This document shows positions 38,602 through 43,473 of a stretch of DNA of 64,000 bases, one piece after another. Both the position numbers and the translations under genes were made by a program. Under the pieces are notes generated by a model that saw nothing but the letters and a program-made list of their open reading frames with translations, was not told where the DNA came from and did no database searches. Source of the DNA: an uncultured bacterium (GTDB lineage Bacteria; Bacillota_I; Bacilli_A; RFN20; CAG-826); NCBI GenBank assembly GCA_949291375.1, contig CASEVI010000001.1, forward strand, positions 256,980 through 320,979, read 5' to 3'. The first letter of the stretch is position 1. Every line of letters starts with the position of its first letter.

Positions 38602-40110
38602 ATGGAATATATTTTATCAAGTAAAGAGATGAAGGAAGCTGATCAATATACAATTGCTTCTTATGCTTCTTCTTTAGAATTAATGGAAAGAGCTGGTCGC
38701 TCGATTTTTGAATTTTTAAAAACTAATTTTTCCAAAGGATTTTATTATTTAATAGTTACTGGAAGTGGAAATAATGGTGGAGATGGATTTGTAGTTGCAA
38801 GATTTCTTTTAGAAAATGGTTATAAAGTTGATGTTTATGAAGCTAGTGAAGCTAAAAGTAGGGAAGCTATTGAAAATAAAAAGGCCTTTTTAAAAGAACC
38901 AATTAAAGAACTTATTATTAATAAAAACACGATTGTAATCGATGCAATTTTTGGATATGGATTAAATAAGAAAATTGAAGAACCGTATTTATCTATAATT
39001 AGAAAAATTAATGAAAGCGAAAAATATAAGGTGATAAGCGTTGATATAGCTAGTGGTATTTCTTCATCAAATGGGAAAAAATTAAATGAAGCAATTAAAA
39101 GCGATATAACGCTTGCTTTAGGCGAATATAAGCTTGGTCATTTTTTAAATGATGGAAAAGATTATAATAAATTGACCATTAAACTTGATATTGGGATAAT
39201 TTTGCCAAAAAAAGCTTATATTAAAAGATTAGATAAAGATGACTTTAAAGATTTATTTATAAATAGAAAAGAAAATTCTAACAAAGGAACTTATGGTAAA
39301 GTTACTTTGTTAGGTGGAATGGAAAAAACTCCAGGAGCATTAATTTTAGCTTATAAATCATATATTTCATTAAAACTTGGTGTAGGATATAGCGAACTTG
39401 CTTTTCCTCGTTCATTAAAATTTTTATATTCTTCTTTAACTCCAGAAATAATTTATCATCCTTTGAAAGATACAAAAGACGGAAGAATTAAATTTAATAA
39501 GAAAGATTTAAAATCGATGCTAAATAGCAAAGTTATTACTATAGGAATGGGGATAGGAATCAGTAAAAATGTTTATAAAATAATTAAATATTTCCTTAAG
39601 AATTATAAAAATAATTTGATTATTGACGCTGATGGTCTTAATTCTTTAGCAAAATATGGTATTGATATTTTAAAAGAAAAAAGAGAATGCAATGTGATTT
39701 TAACTCCCCATATTAAAGAATTTTCACGCTTGTCTAAAAAAAGTGTTGATGAAATTAAAACTACAAGAGTAAAATTCGCTAAAGAATTTTCCTATCTTTA
39801 TAATGTTTATTTAGTTTTAAAAGATAACTCAACTTTAATAGTTTATAAAAACGATGCTTTTTTAAATACAAATGGAAATAGTGGTTTAGCTAAGGGAGGA
39901 AGCGGTGATCTTTTAAGTGGCCTTATTGCTGGAAGCGTTTCTTTAAATAATAATAGAGAAGATTTATTAAGAAAAATTGCTTTAGGAAGTTATATTTTAG
40001 GAAGAAGCGCCGATATTTTAAAACTCCATGAAAGAATTAATGAATTTTCGCTTATTCCTTCAGAAATCGTAATGGTAGTAAATAAAGTAATAAATGAAAT
40101 AATTGGGTAG
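38602..40110 (+). CDS. Bifunctional NAD(P)H-hydrate epimerase / dehydratase
   Basis: 502 residues, the fused YjeF layout. The N-terminal epimerase (about 1-210) has SLELMERAGRSI, VTGSGNNGGDGFVVARFLL and VIDAIFGYGLNK. The C-terminal ribokinase-like dehydratase (about 220-500) has GTYGKVTLLGG, LIIDADGLNSLA, VILTPHIKEFSRL and GNSGLAKGGSGDLLSGLIAG. It repairs hydrated NADH and NADPH. Leaderless by appearance. Confidence 0.95.
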   Translation: MEYILSSKEMKEADQYTIASYASSLELMERAGRSIFEFLKTNFSKGFYYLIVTGSGNNGGDGFVVARFLLENGYKVDVYEASEAKSREAIENKKAFLKEPIKELIINKNTIVIDAIFGYGLNKKIEEPYLSIIRKINESEKYKVISVDIASGISSSNGKKLNEAIKSDITLALGEYKLGHFLNDGKDYNKLTIKLDIGIILPKKAYIKRLDKDDFKDLFINRKENSNKGTYGKVTLLGGMEKTPGALILAYKSYISLKLGVGYSELAFPRSLKFLYSSLTPEIIYHPLKDTKDGRIKFNKKDLKSMLNSKVITIGMGIGISKNVYKIIKYFLKNYKNNLIIDADGLNSLAKYGIDILKEKRECNVILTPHIKEFSRLSKKSVDEIKTTRVKFAKEFSYLYNVYLVLKDNSTLIVYKNDAFLNTNGNSGLAKGGSGDLLSGLIAGSVSLNNNREDLLRKIALGSYILGRSADILKLHERINEFSLIPSEIVMVVNKVINEIIG

Positions 40111-40157: not shown

Positions 40158-43100
40158 ATGGGAAAAGTAGAAAAAAATAATAAAAATAAAGGAAAAGTAG
40201 GCTTTAGACAATGGATTTTATTTATATTAATTGGATTTGCTGGCCAACTTGCTTGGAACGTTGAAAATATGTATTTAAATAAATTTATTTTCTCATTTGG
40301 CGATCCTAACTATTCTTTAATGATTACTTTAACAGTAGCAATAAGTGCGATAGTTGCTTGTTTAACAACTATATTTATGGGGGCTTTATCAGATAAAATT
40401 GGAAAAAGGAAAATATTTATTGCTTTAGGTTATCTACTTTGGGGAATTTCTACAGCTTCATTTGGACTTATTAGCGTAGAAAATGTTTCTATATTATTTC
40501 CTAGCTTAAGTGCAGCAAGTGTTGCAGCTATTTTAGTAATTGTTATGGATGCAATTATGACTTTTATTGGAAGTAGTGCTAATGATGCAGCTTTTAATGC
40601 TTACGTAACTGAAAGTGTTGATGATAAAAATAGAGGTAAGGTTGAAGGAGTTTTATCAATTCTTCCTCTTATTGCAATGCTTGTTATATTTATTGGTTTA
40701 GATACTTTAACAACTTCGGGACATTGGGATTTATTCTTTTATATTATTGGTGGTTTTGCTTTTATAGTCGGTATTATTTCTTTTTTCCTCATTCCAAAAG
40801 AGGAAAAAAGAAATAATATAGGTAAAAGAACTTATATAAAAACTATTGCTGAAGGATTTAGAATTAAAACTATTAAAAATAATAAAAGTTTATATATTAT
40901 TTTAATTGCTTATTTAATATTTGGAATTGCTACACAAATATTTTTCCCATATTTAATGATTTATTTCCAATATAGTTTAAATTTCCAAGGTTTAGACTTT
41001 ATGATTTGTTTAGGTGTAGTTTTAGTTCTCGGTTCACTTTTAACTGTTTTAGTTGGGATAATGATGGACAAATTAGGCAAAAATAAACTTATAATTCCTA
41101 TTATGATATTGGCTATTTTAGGGTTATTTTTAGTTTATTTCGTTAAACCTGGTCAATTAGTTTTTGCAATTATTGCCGGAACTGTTATGCTTTTTGGATA
41201 TATTTGCGGAGGTTCTATATTAAATGCGATTGTAAGAGAAAAAATACCAGAAGGCGATGAAGGAATATTTATGGGGGTAAGAATGATATTTGTTGTTATG
41301 CTCCCAATGGTAAGTGGACCTTATATTGCCCAAGTTTTAGTCGATAATTTTGCCAATGGAACTTATATTGGCGATTATGGAACACCTCAAAATTTGCCTC
41401 CTGCTTTAATTTGGCTAGTTGCAGCAATTGTTTTAATTTTTATTTTTATTCCAATTTATTTTTATTTAAAAAAAGAAAAAAACGATAAGAAAAATAGTGA
41501 AAAAGAAAACTTTGGTAAAGTTAATAATGGAATTTCTTATAAAATTGAAAAAGAAAATCACGATGAAAATTTTATTCCTTTAAAAGAACATCCAAATCCA
41601 TATTTTAAAAGAAATAATTACCTTTCTCTTAATGGTTATTGGGATTTATATATTGGAAAAGAAGAAAGTCTTCCTTCTTTTTATAATAAAAAAATACTTG
41701 TTCCTTATGCTATAGAATCACCCTTAAGTGAAGTTGAAATAAATATTTTGCCTGATGATGTTATTTTTTATCATAAAGAAATAGTTTTACCATTAGAAAT
41801 GTATAAAGAACATTTAATTATTAATTTTTTAGGCGTTGATCAGACGTGTGAACTATACGTTAATAAGATGCTAGTTATGAAAAATGAATCTGGATATAAT
41901 TCTTTTTCCTATGATATTCGCCCTTTAATTAAAGAAGATAAAAAATTAGATATTATTCTTAAGGTAAAAGATGTAAGCGATACTTCTTACTTTTCACGTG
42001 GAAAACAATCGTTAAATAGAGGGAATATTTGGTATACAACTACAAGTGGAATTTATAAACCTGTTTATTTAGAAAGTGTTTCTTCTAAAGAGTATATTAA
42101 ATCTTTTAATATTGTTCCTAATGCTAATGAAGAGATGATTAGTGGCATTATTGAAACAAATAATGGATATACTTGTTTATTAAAAGTCGGCGAAGAAGAA
42201 TTTTTAGTCGAACCAAATAAACCTTTCTCTTTTAAAATTAAAAATATACATTATTGGAATTTAGATGATCCATTTTTATATGATGTAAAAGTTAAATATT
42301 TTGATGATGAGGTTTCTTCGGTTTTAGGGTTTAGAAAAATTGAAATAAAAAAGAAAAATAACAAAAATAGGTTATTTTTAAATGATAAAGAAATAATTTT
42401 AAAAGGGTTATTAGACCAAGGATATTATTTTAAAGGAAATTTAACACCTGAAAAATATGAAGATTATTTTGAAGAAATCAAAAAAATAAAACTTTTAGGG
42501 TTTAACACTTTAAGAAAGCATATAAAACTCGAAATACCACTCTTTTATTATTATTGTGATAAATTAGGCATTTTTACAATTCAAGATATTGTTAATGGCG
42601 GAAGAAGTTATGATAAACGGACTATTCAATCACCATTAATTTTGAACACACATAAAAAAGATATTGATAAAAATTATAAAAAGTTTAAAAGAGAAGATGA
42701 AAAAGGAAGACAAGAATATTTAGTCGATTTAAATTTTACTCTTTCTTTATTATCTTCCTCTCCTTCAAATATCATAATTTGTTTATTTAATGAAGGATGG
42801 GGTCAATTTGATTCAACTCTTTATTATAAACACACTAAAAATATTGTTAAAAATAATAAATTAATCGATACAGCTAGTGGATGGTATGATAATGAAAATA
42901 GTGATTTTTATAGTAAACATATTTATTTCTTACCTATCAAAAATGTAAAAATGAAAGGTAAAAGAGCTTATTTATTAAGTGAATTCGGTGGATACTCTCT
43001 TTATTTAGAAGATCATTTTTATGGTAAATCACCTTATGGGTATAAAAAATTTAAAGATAGTAAATCTTTAACTAAAGCTTATAAAAGGTTAATGAATTCC

Positions 43101-43265
43101 GTAATTAAATCATTAAAAAAAGATATGGTTGGGTTTATTTATACTCAATTAAGTGATGTAGAAGATGAAGTTAATGGTTTATTTACTTTTGATAGAAAAA
43201 TATTAAAAATAGATGAGCAGACCATTAAGGATATTAATAAAAAAGTAGATGAATTAATAAAATAA
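40158..43265 (+). CDS. MFS sugar transporter fused to a GH2-family glycoside hydrolase
   Basis: 1035 residues in one uninterrupted frame. Residues about 15-437 form a 12-span MFS carrier with the loop motif GALSDKIGKRKIF after span 2 and GIMMDKLGKNKLI in the second half. Span 12 is followed by a lysine-rich linker (about 438-483), so the rest should lie in the cytoplasm. Residues 484-640 are the GH2 jelly roll (LSLNGYWDLYIGKEE), about 650-735 an Ig-like domain, and 746-1030 the TIM barrel (GFNTLRKHIKLE, QDIVNGG). Likely acid/base Glu879 is in FNEGWGQFD and likely nucleophile Glu942 in LSEFGGYS. No internal SD-ATG near the join suggests a separate second gene. Inferred role: import of a beta-glycoside and cleavage on arrival. 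Specificity unknown. SD AAGGAAAGGG. Confidence 0.88.
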   Translation: MGKVEKNNKNKGKVGFRQWILFILIGFAGQLAWNVENMYLNKFIFSFGDPNYSLMITLTVAISAIVACLTTIFMGALSDKIGKRKIFIALGYLLWGISTASFGLISVENVSILFPSLSAASVAAILVIVMDAIMTFIGSSANDAAFNAYVTESVDDKNRGKVEGVLSILPLIAMLVIFIGLDTLTTSGHWDLFFYIIGGFAFIVGIISFFLIPKEEKRNNIGKRTYIKTIAEGFRIKTIKNNKSLYIILIAYLIFGIATQIFFPYLMIYFQYSLNFQGLDFMICLGVVLVLGSLLTVLVGIMMDKLGKNKLIIPIMILAILGLFLVYFVKPGQLVFAIIAGTVMLFGYICGGSILNAIVREKIPEGDEGIFMGVRMIFVVMLPMVSGPYIAQVLVDNFANGTYIGDYGTPQNLPPALIWLVAAIVLIFIFIPIYFYLKKEKNDKKNSEKENFGKVNNGISYKIEKENHDENFIPLKEHPNPYFKRNNYLSLNGYWDLYIGKEESLPSFYNKKILVPYAIESPLSEVEINILPDDVIFYHKEIVLPLEMYKEHLIINFLGVDQTCELYVNKMLVMKNESGYNSFSYDIRPLIKEDKKLDIILKVKDVSDTSYFSRGKQSLNRGNIWYTTTSGIYKPVYLESVSSKEYIKSFNIVPNANEEMISGIIETNNGYTCLLKVGEEEFLVEPNKPFSFKIKNIHYWNLDDPFLYDVKVKYFDDEVSSVLGFRKIEIKKKNNKNRLFLNDKEIILKGLLDQGYYFKGNLTPEKYEDYFEEIKKIKLLGFNTLRKHIKLEIPLFYYYCDKLGIFTIQDIVNGGRSYDKRTIQSPLILNTHKKDIDKNYKKFKREDEKGRQEYLVDLNFTLSLLSSSPSNIIICLFNEGWGQFDSTLYYKHTKNIVKNNKLIDTASGWYDNENSDFYSKHIYFLPIKNVKMKGKRAYLLSEFGGYSLYLEDHFYGKSPYGYKKFKDSKSLTKAYKRLMNSVIKSLKKDMVGFIYTQLSDVEDEVNGLFTFDRKILKIDEQTIKDINKKVDELIK

Positions 43266-43272
43266 AATTATT

Positions 43273-43304
43273 GACTCTTAATATAATTATTAAGAGTCTT
43301 TTTT
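43273..43304 (+). terminator. Terminator after the MFS-GH2 gene
   Basis: GACTCTTAAT / ATTAAGAGTC with an ATAATT loop and six Ts. Confidence 0.9.
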
Positions 43305-43337
43305 CTAAAATAAACTTTATAAATAGTTAATTTTTGA

Positions 43338-43343
43338 TATAAT
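43338..43343 (+). promoter_or_regulatory. -10 box upstream of the Mn2+ riboswitch
   Basis: TATAAT about a dozen bases before the aptamer start. Confidence 0.45.
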
Positions 43344-43353
43344 AATCTTCGTA

Positions 43354-43452
43354 TTTAGGGAGTAGCTTTTAAGTTACTATTCGACAATCACGATTTTATT
43401 TTTTTATAAATCCGGATGTAACAAGATATTTCTTAGCAAGACTAAATATCAA
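43354..43452 (+). ncRNA. yybP-ykoY manganese riboswitch
   Basis: Contains the hallmark AGGGAGTAG at the 5' side and TAGCAAGACT at the 3' side, with the paired GTAGC...GTTAC arm and an ATCACGATTTTAT / ATAAATCCGGATG arm between them. This class senses Mn2+ and is known upstream of P-type cation ATPases and other Mn exporters. No terminator was seen between the aptamer and the SD (TTAGGAG at 43461), so control may be at translation. Confidence 0.85.
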
Positions 43453-43473
43453 ATAATTTTTTAGGAGATAAAA

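Follow-up and report, generated by a model that had tools for sequence, protein, structure and literature searches.

In the described lac, gus and bgl systems, the symporter and the glycosidase are separate proteins, which is how such carriers and hydrolases have long been investigated. Those pairs resemble the gene analysed here in combining a secondary carrier with a cytoplasmic hydrolase of the GH2 type, but differ from it in being separate proteins, in the GH2 subfamilies involved and in their substrates. The nearest precedent for a fusion is LplT-Aas, an MFS lysophospholipid flippase and a cytoplasmic acyltransferase encoded by neighbouring genes in many bacteria and by one ORF in others, the fused versions being stated to be uncharacterised (PMC11416262). 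Both arrangements associate an MFS carrier with a cytoplasmic enzyme acting on its cargo, but the LplT-Aas enzyme is unrelated to the C-terminal GH2 domain of the present protein and the cargo is a lipid and not a sugar, so that the likeness is one of arrangement only.

Among hydrolases, ORF1110 of Streptomyces sp. JHA19 (PDB 9j6m/9j6n) is a beta-D-galactofuranosidase, Galf-specific and inactive on nine pyranosides tested, in which alanine mutants defined eight residues whose loss leaves <16% activity (PMC4560423). Group III of GH2 (subfamilies GH2_18 and GH2_19) also includes alpha-L-arabinofuranosidases, and secretion signals are mostly lacking in GH2_19 proteins (PMC12243196). A literature search, with subscription journals largely outside its coverage, gave no paper describing an MFS-glycosidase fusion, in agreement with the initial annotation, which had named no described system with this arrangement. 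The architecture is probably present, without comment, in annotation databases.

Results

Gene and domain organization

The window analysed was a stretch of 64,000 nucleotides of an uncultured bacterium. Its features relevant to the fusion were:

38602..40110, + strand: upstream neighbour, NAD(P)HX epimerase/dehydratase (Pfam, synteny), marking the syntenic locus at which G018 has a split pair
40158..43265, + strand: MFS-GH2 fusion gene, 1035 aa (open frame, Pfam; 16/26 same-genus genomes fused)
40203..41507, + strand: MFS carrier domain, residues 16-450, 12 transmembrane helices, both termini cytoplasmic (Pfam MFS_1/MFS_2, AlphaFold2 model, VIA Z, positive-inside 32:2)
41490..41582, + strand: linker, approximately residues 445-475, mostly disordered (pLDDT, motif comparison, dN/dS)
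41583..43262, + strand: GH2 domain, residues 476-1035, with jelly-roll, Ig-like and TIM-barrel parts (Pfam, 7sf2 match, VIA Z)
42792..42794, + strand: Glu879 (NEGW), predicted acid/base, equivalent to E464 of ORF1110 (motif, alignment)
42981..42983, + strand: Glu942 (SEFGG), predicted nucleophile, equivalent to E530 of ORF1110 (motif, alignment)
43273..43298, + strand: intrinsic terminator-like stem-loop with a T-run, 3' of the fusion gene (pattern match)

The fusion gene ran from ATG to TAA with zero internal stops and was single-copy in the host genome. Terminator-like sites found by pattern match numbered 3, vs. 0.6 in shuffles. The leader of a P-type ATPase gene at 43320-43470 looked structured by eye; a manganese-riboswitch-like appearance of 43330-43470 had no Rfam match.

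The MFS_1 profile (PF07690) matched residues 54-388 (E = 8.6e-37; 127 bits vs. a cut-off of 33.4), and this match, 12 helices and the MFS fold (VIA Z of approximately 35 to MFS structures) placed the domain in the MFS superfamily. Hydropathy gave 12 hydrophobic spans, and Lys plus Arg numbered 32 in the predicted inside loops vs. 2 in the outside loops, which puts both termini, and hence the GH2 part, in the cytoplasm. The structural matches were generic MFS, with no sugar-hydrolase-linked carrier among those listed for the domain. MFS_2 (PF13347) passed its own cut-off (47 vs. 27 bits). The GPH:cation symporter model TIGR00792 reached 34.9 bits, far below its curated cut-off of 231, and the carrier was not assigned to that family; a kinship with GPH symporters is possible from the PF13347 match. 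The best PDB match of the MFS profile was AmpG, a weak one (E = 2.4e-4), and there was no close characterised relative. Pairing with a cytoplasmic exo-hydrolase suggests that the carrier works as an importer.

In the hydrolase half, Glyco_hydro_2_N (PF02837; residues 532-638, E = 1.3e-14) and Glyco_hydro_2 (PF00703; residues 684-726, E = 3.9e-5) were matched over their curated cut-offs, whereas PF02836, which was matched in fused and split relatives, was without a match in the window protein. The N-terminal and Ig-like domains, the TIM barrel, E879 and E942 identified a member of glycoside hydrolase family 2. Both glutamates were invariant among all 36 fused proteins aligned. The initial annotation had read from this gene one polypeptide joining MFS and GH2 parts, 12 spans with a cytoplasmic hydrolase domain and a conserved catalytic pair; the uninterrupted frame and the Pfam domains of both kinds bore out the first point, the hydropathy, the AlphaFold2 model and the charge distribution the second, and the NEGW and SEFGG motifs, at the positions it gave, the third.

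In both sequence and fold, the closest solved structures were 7sf2 (E = 4e-76 to the GH2 domain by sequence; VIA Z 41.5), 9j6m/9j6n (VIA Z 40.5 to 9j6n, a beta-D-galactofuranosidase) and 7xyr; 7sf2 carries the title 'beta-galactosidase', and 9j6m and 7xyr belong to GH2_18 and GH2_19, respectively. These proteins resemble the GH2 half of the fusion in fold (Z 40-41), in the catalytic Glu pair and in the residues essential in ORF1110: D423, E464, D330, E405, D500, E594, E530 and D201 of ORF1110 corresponded to D810, E879, D717, E792, D911, E1004, E942 and D605 (8/8 identical). ORF1110 differs in that its activity was obtained from culture supernatant and in having an AbfB domain and no membrane domain, while the enzyme of the fusion would be tethered intracellularly to a carrier. 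Group III is marked by a Thr in place of the loop 8 Trp, for which T996, invariant within a YTQ/YTE segment, is a candidate. As judged from sequence and fold, the GH2 part appears closest to the group III furanosidases (GH2_18/19). A GH2 of the LacZ, GUS or GalA type found no support, the NCBIfam equivalog models scoring 68.6, 56.1, 54.3 and 52.4 bits vs. cut-offs of 544-999. With group III furanosidases as nearest structures and those models far below their cut-offs, the beta-glycoside substrate of the initial annotation, if taken as a beta-pyranoside of lac/bgl type, found no support.

Linker between carrier and hydrolase

An AlphaFold2 model built from 36 fused sequences (mean pLDDT 84, pTM 0.67) comprised an MFS bundle at residues 16-450, a stretch with pLDDT <50 around residues 445-460 and a complete GH2 fold extending to residue 1035. 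The linker, approximately 30 residues long, contained NNG (residues 456-458), a match to the N-x-G motif at the start of the GH2 genes that stand alone in relatives. Its dN/dS was 0.08-0.32 in five species pairs (0.16-0.32 in the clade of the window), and that of the MFS and GH2 domains was 0.04-0.20 in five species pairs; these ratios indicate purifying selection on the linker as well. Linker identity to relatives <65% identical was only 17-42%.

Since the linker was disordered and pTM was 0.67, the model gives no fixed docking or channel. The initial placement of the hydrolase at the exit of the carrier was thus retained for the cytoplasmic side but not for a fixed docking or channel. A disordered linker of approximately 30 residues argues for tethering, with high local concentration and equal stoichiometry, over a rigid channel.

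Distribution of the fusion

An open, full-length fusion was found in 16/26 same-genus species, window included, at 100-44% identity (94, 86, 75, 62, 56 and down to 44%), and in more distant relatives down to 37% identity. Beyond the genus, it was carried by members of further families, both within the order (G070, G066, G072, G047 and, shortened, G068) and, for one family, elsewhere in the class (G545, G363). Scanning a one-genome-per-species collection gave 442 confirmed relatives; among the best 80, which were examined for state, 39 had the one-frame fusion, in Bacilli, Clostridia and one Spirochaetota MAG; the isolate Acetatifactor muris DSM 23669 was one of the 39. Most fused loci were from Clostridia (>30), of the Oscillospiraceae and Lachnospiraceae, and from animal guts. 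The MFS was always N-terminal and the GH2 always C-terminal in fusions. The initial annotation would have fallen with a break near residues 438-480 or with no relatives carrying both domains in one chain; such relatives exist, and the frames were open across a linker under constraint.

The Spirochaetota MAG, labelled Treponemataceae, carried a fusion (L117:7914-11129) that grouped with Lachnospiraceae fusions in the tree, either through horizontal transfer or through mis-binning. A plasmid search returned unfused GH2 relatives only.

Fusion and fission

Separate adjacent MFS and GH2 genes were found in 13 relatives examined, 5 of them of the genus of the window. The GH2 frame was +1 to the MFS frame in all (13/13), the longest GH2 ORF overlapping the MFS end by 11-68 nt, so that a frame change by a single indel would be a sufficient route to fusion. 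In most split relatives, the MFS stop was in or beside an N-x-G motif near the GH2 N-terminus; this motif or a close form of it was retained in the linker of 20/21 fused proteins, where it precedes the GH2 anchor by 18-26 residues, and some proteins of the clade of the window had NFGK followed by NNGI a few residues on. Within the end of the MFS gene, split GH2 genes had in-frame starts of their own, frequently preceded by a GGAG-like stretch (by eye); given these starts, translational coupling is a simpler reading of the split pairs than programmed frameshifting.

Both states occurred at the same loci. Next to the NAD(P)HX dehydratase gene, the pair was fused in G003, G010, G023, G017 and G020 and split in G018; at a recR/tmk/holB-like locus, fused in G025, G016, G013 and G001 and split in G014, G004, G024 and G009; at a dnaN-like locus, split in G062, G067 and G064 and fused in G066, with G068 also fused but next to the opposite flank (gene names at the last two loci were read from the sequences). 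Neighbours at all three syntenic loci were housekeeping genes, with no sugar operon and no lead to the substrate. The GH2 and MFS trees needed 5 and 7 state changes, respectively, and a concatenated tree of 60 rows at least 7, all forced by supported branches; one clade of that tree held 10 fused species. Persistence of both states in sister species implies that the fusion is not essential.

Two further arrangements were observed. At L094:7959-10979 (Clostridia), the halves were in the same frame with one TAA between them and an ATG immediately after, possibly a fission or pre-fusion state, or a case of readthrough. At L120:7977-11034 the order was reversed, GH2 first and an overlapping MFS second.

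Related carriers joined to DUF2804

A related MFS (33% identical) carried a C-terminal DUF2804 (PF10974, E of approximately 1e-87) in two genomes (L192:1044-3464 in G012 and L193:930-3341 in G172). These proteins resemble MFS-GH2 in having a related MFS and a cytoplasmic C-terminal domain, and differ in that this domain is DUF2804, a domain of unknown function. The fusion hints that DUF2804 may act on imported glycosides. At L194:1795-5952 (G429), the three genes for MFS, DUF2804 and GH2 followed one another on the same strand with overlaps. With the MFS-DUF2804 fusions, this trio makes the joining of this carrier type to cytoplasmic enzymes seem a wider habit. DUF2804 was present in 33/59 relatives vs. 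0/14 control genomes. Single DUF2804 genes were also seen near an MFS-GH2 fusion (L196:12684-13718, G545) and, free, in the host genome (L208:3132-4154, C1, approximately 179.1-180.2 kb) beside an alcohol dehydrogenase-like gene (by eye).

Discussion

The reading preferred, with a probability of about 0.6, is that of a bifunctional protein for uptake and hydrolysis of a furanoside, born from an overlapping gene pair. An overlapping, co-directional carrier-hydrolase pair would have become fused when the reading frame shifted within the overlap, with fusion and fission recurring in several lineages. The N-terminal MFS domain would import a small glycoside that contains a furanose, its terminal unit being most likely beta-D-galactofuranosyl; the exo-furanosidase of the C-terminal GH2 half, flexibly tethered by approximately 30 residues on the cytoplasmic face, would cleave it, and the freed galactose would enter metabolism via galactokinase. 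Equal stoichiometry, high local enzyme concentration and removal of imported substrate may be the benefits of tethering. Import coupled to cleavage, the role suggested initially, is likely for a carrier and a cytoplasmic exo-hydrolase in one chain. More tentatively, and with rather low confidence, covalent coupling of carrier and hydrolase may be recurrent and selected in gut Bacillota, the tethered enzyme driving uptake by removing the emerging glycoside, and DUF2804 being another kind of cytoplasmic enzyme joined to the same carrier family.

Fusion might instead be a near-neutral by-product of overlapping genes, frames being joined or parted by indels with no gain beyond a fixed stoichiometry. 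Alternation of split and fused states between closely related species and within single loci, the low conservation of the linker and the sufficiency of one indel in overlapping pairs agree with such an origin; retention of the fused state along long branches (the 10-species clade and the 39 fused loci), purifying selection on the linker, the fixed domain order and the independent fusion of a related MFS to DUF2804 do not, and a neutral by-product was judged possible but the less probable account. The joined protein occurs in dozens of related gut bacteria, and its recurrent joining and parting suggests that sugar import and digestion are worth tying together. Loci with orthologues in both states offer matched pairs for the kinetic value of coupling transport to metabolism.

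Small beta-D-galactofuranosides are the best reading of the cargo from sequence comparison, alpha-L-arabinofuranosides being less likely. Galactokinase (galK) was present in 26/26 and L-arabinose isomerase (araA) in 0/26 same-genus genomes, which fits galactose better than arabinose, although galK is weak evidence because it is widespread. UDP-galactopyranose mutase was present in the host genome and missing from several fusion carriers, which, like the housekeeping surroundings of the gene, speaks against the preferred reading. The same architecture could serve an alpha-L-arabinofuranoside or another glycoside than a galactofuranoside, as the arabinofuranosidases within group III and the title of 7sf2, the closest structure, would allow; with araA absent and all residues essential in the Galf-specific ORF1110 kept, such other substrates were considered possible but less probable. 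The fusion suggests furanoside uptake as a function for an uncharacterised MFS branch, and the DUF2804 carrier-enzyme fusion is brought to attention.

A transceptor, in which the GH2 domain would gate the carrier or signal its state instead of serving catabolism, would suit a gene apart from sugar operons, and sensors of the MFS type are known, but the full set of catalytic residues was invariant and the enzyme of split relatives is complete and free-standing, which makes this role highly improbable. That an assembly or indel artefact joined two real genes, as a single false indel could do in these mostly metagenome-assembled genomes with split genes overlapping in another frame, was refuted for the family by unbroken fusions across numerous independent assemblies (94-37% identity), by selection on the linker and by a fused gene in an isolate genome.

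The isolate, Acetatifactor muris DSM 23669, had a fusion of 1127 aa with its domains confirmed, and its being cultured makes the fusion experimentally tractable. An open frame of 816 aa lay antisense to most of the fusion gene of this isolate (L110:8754-11204, - strand) and is probably a by-product of codon composition.
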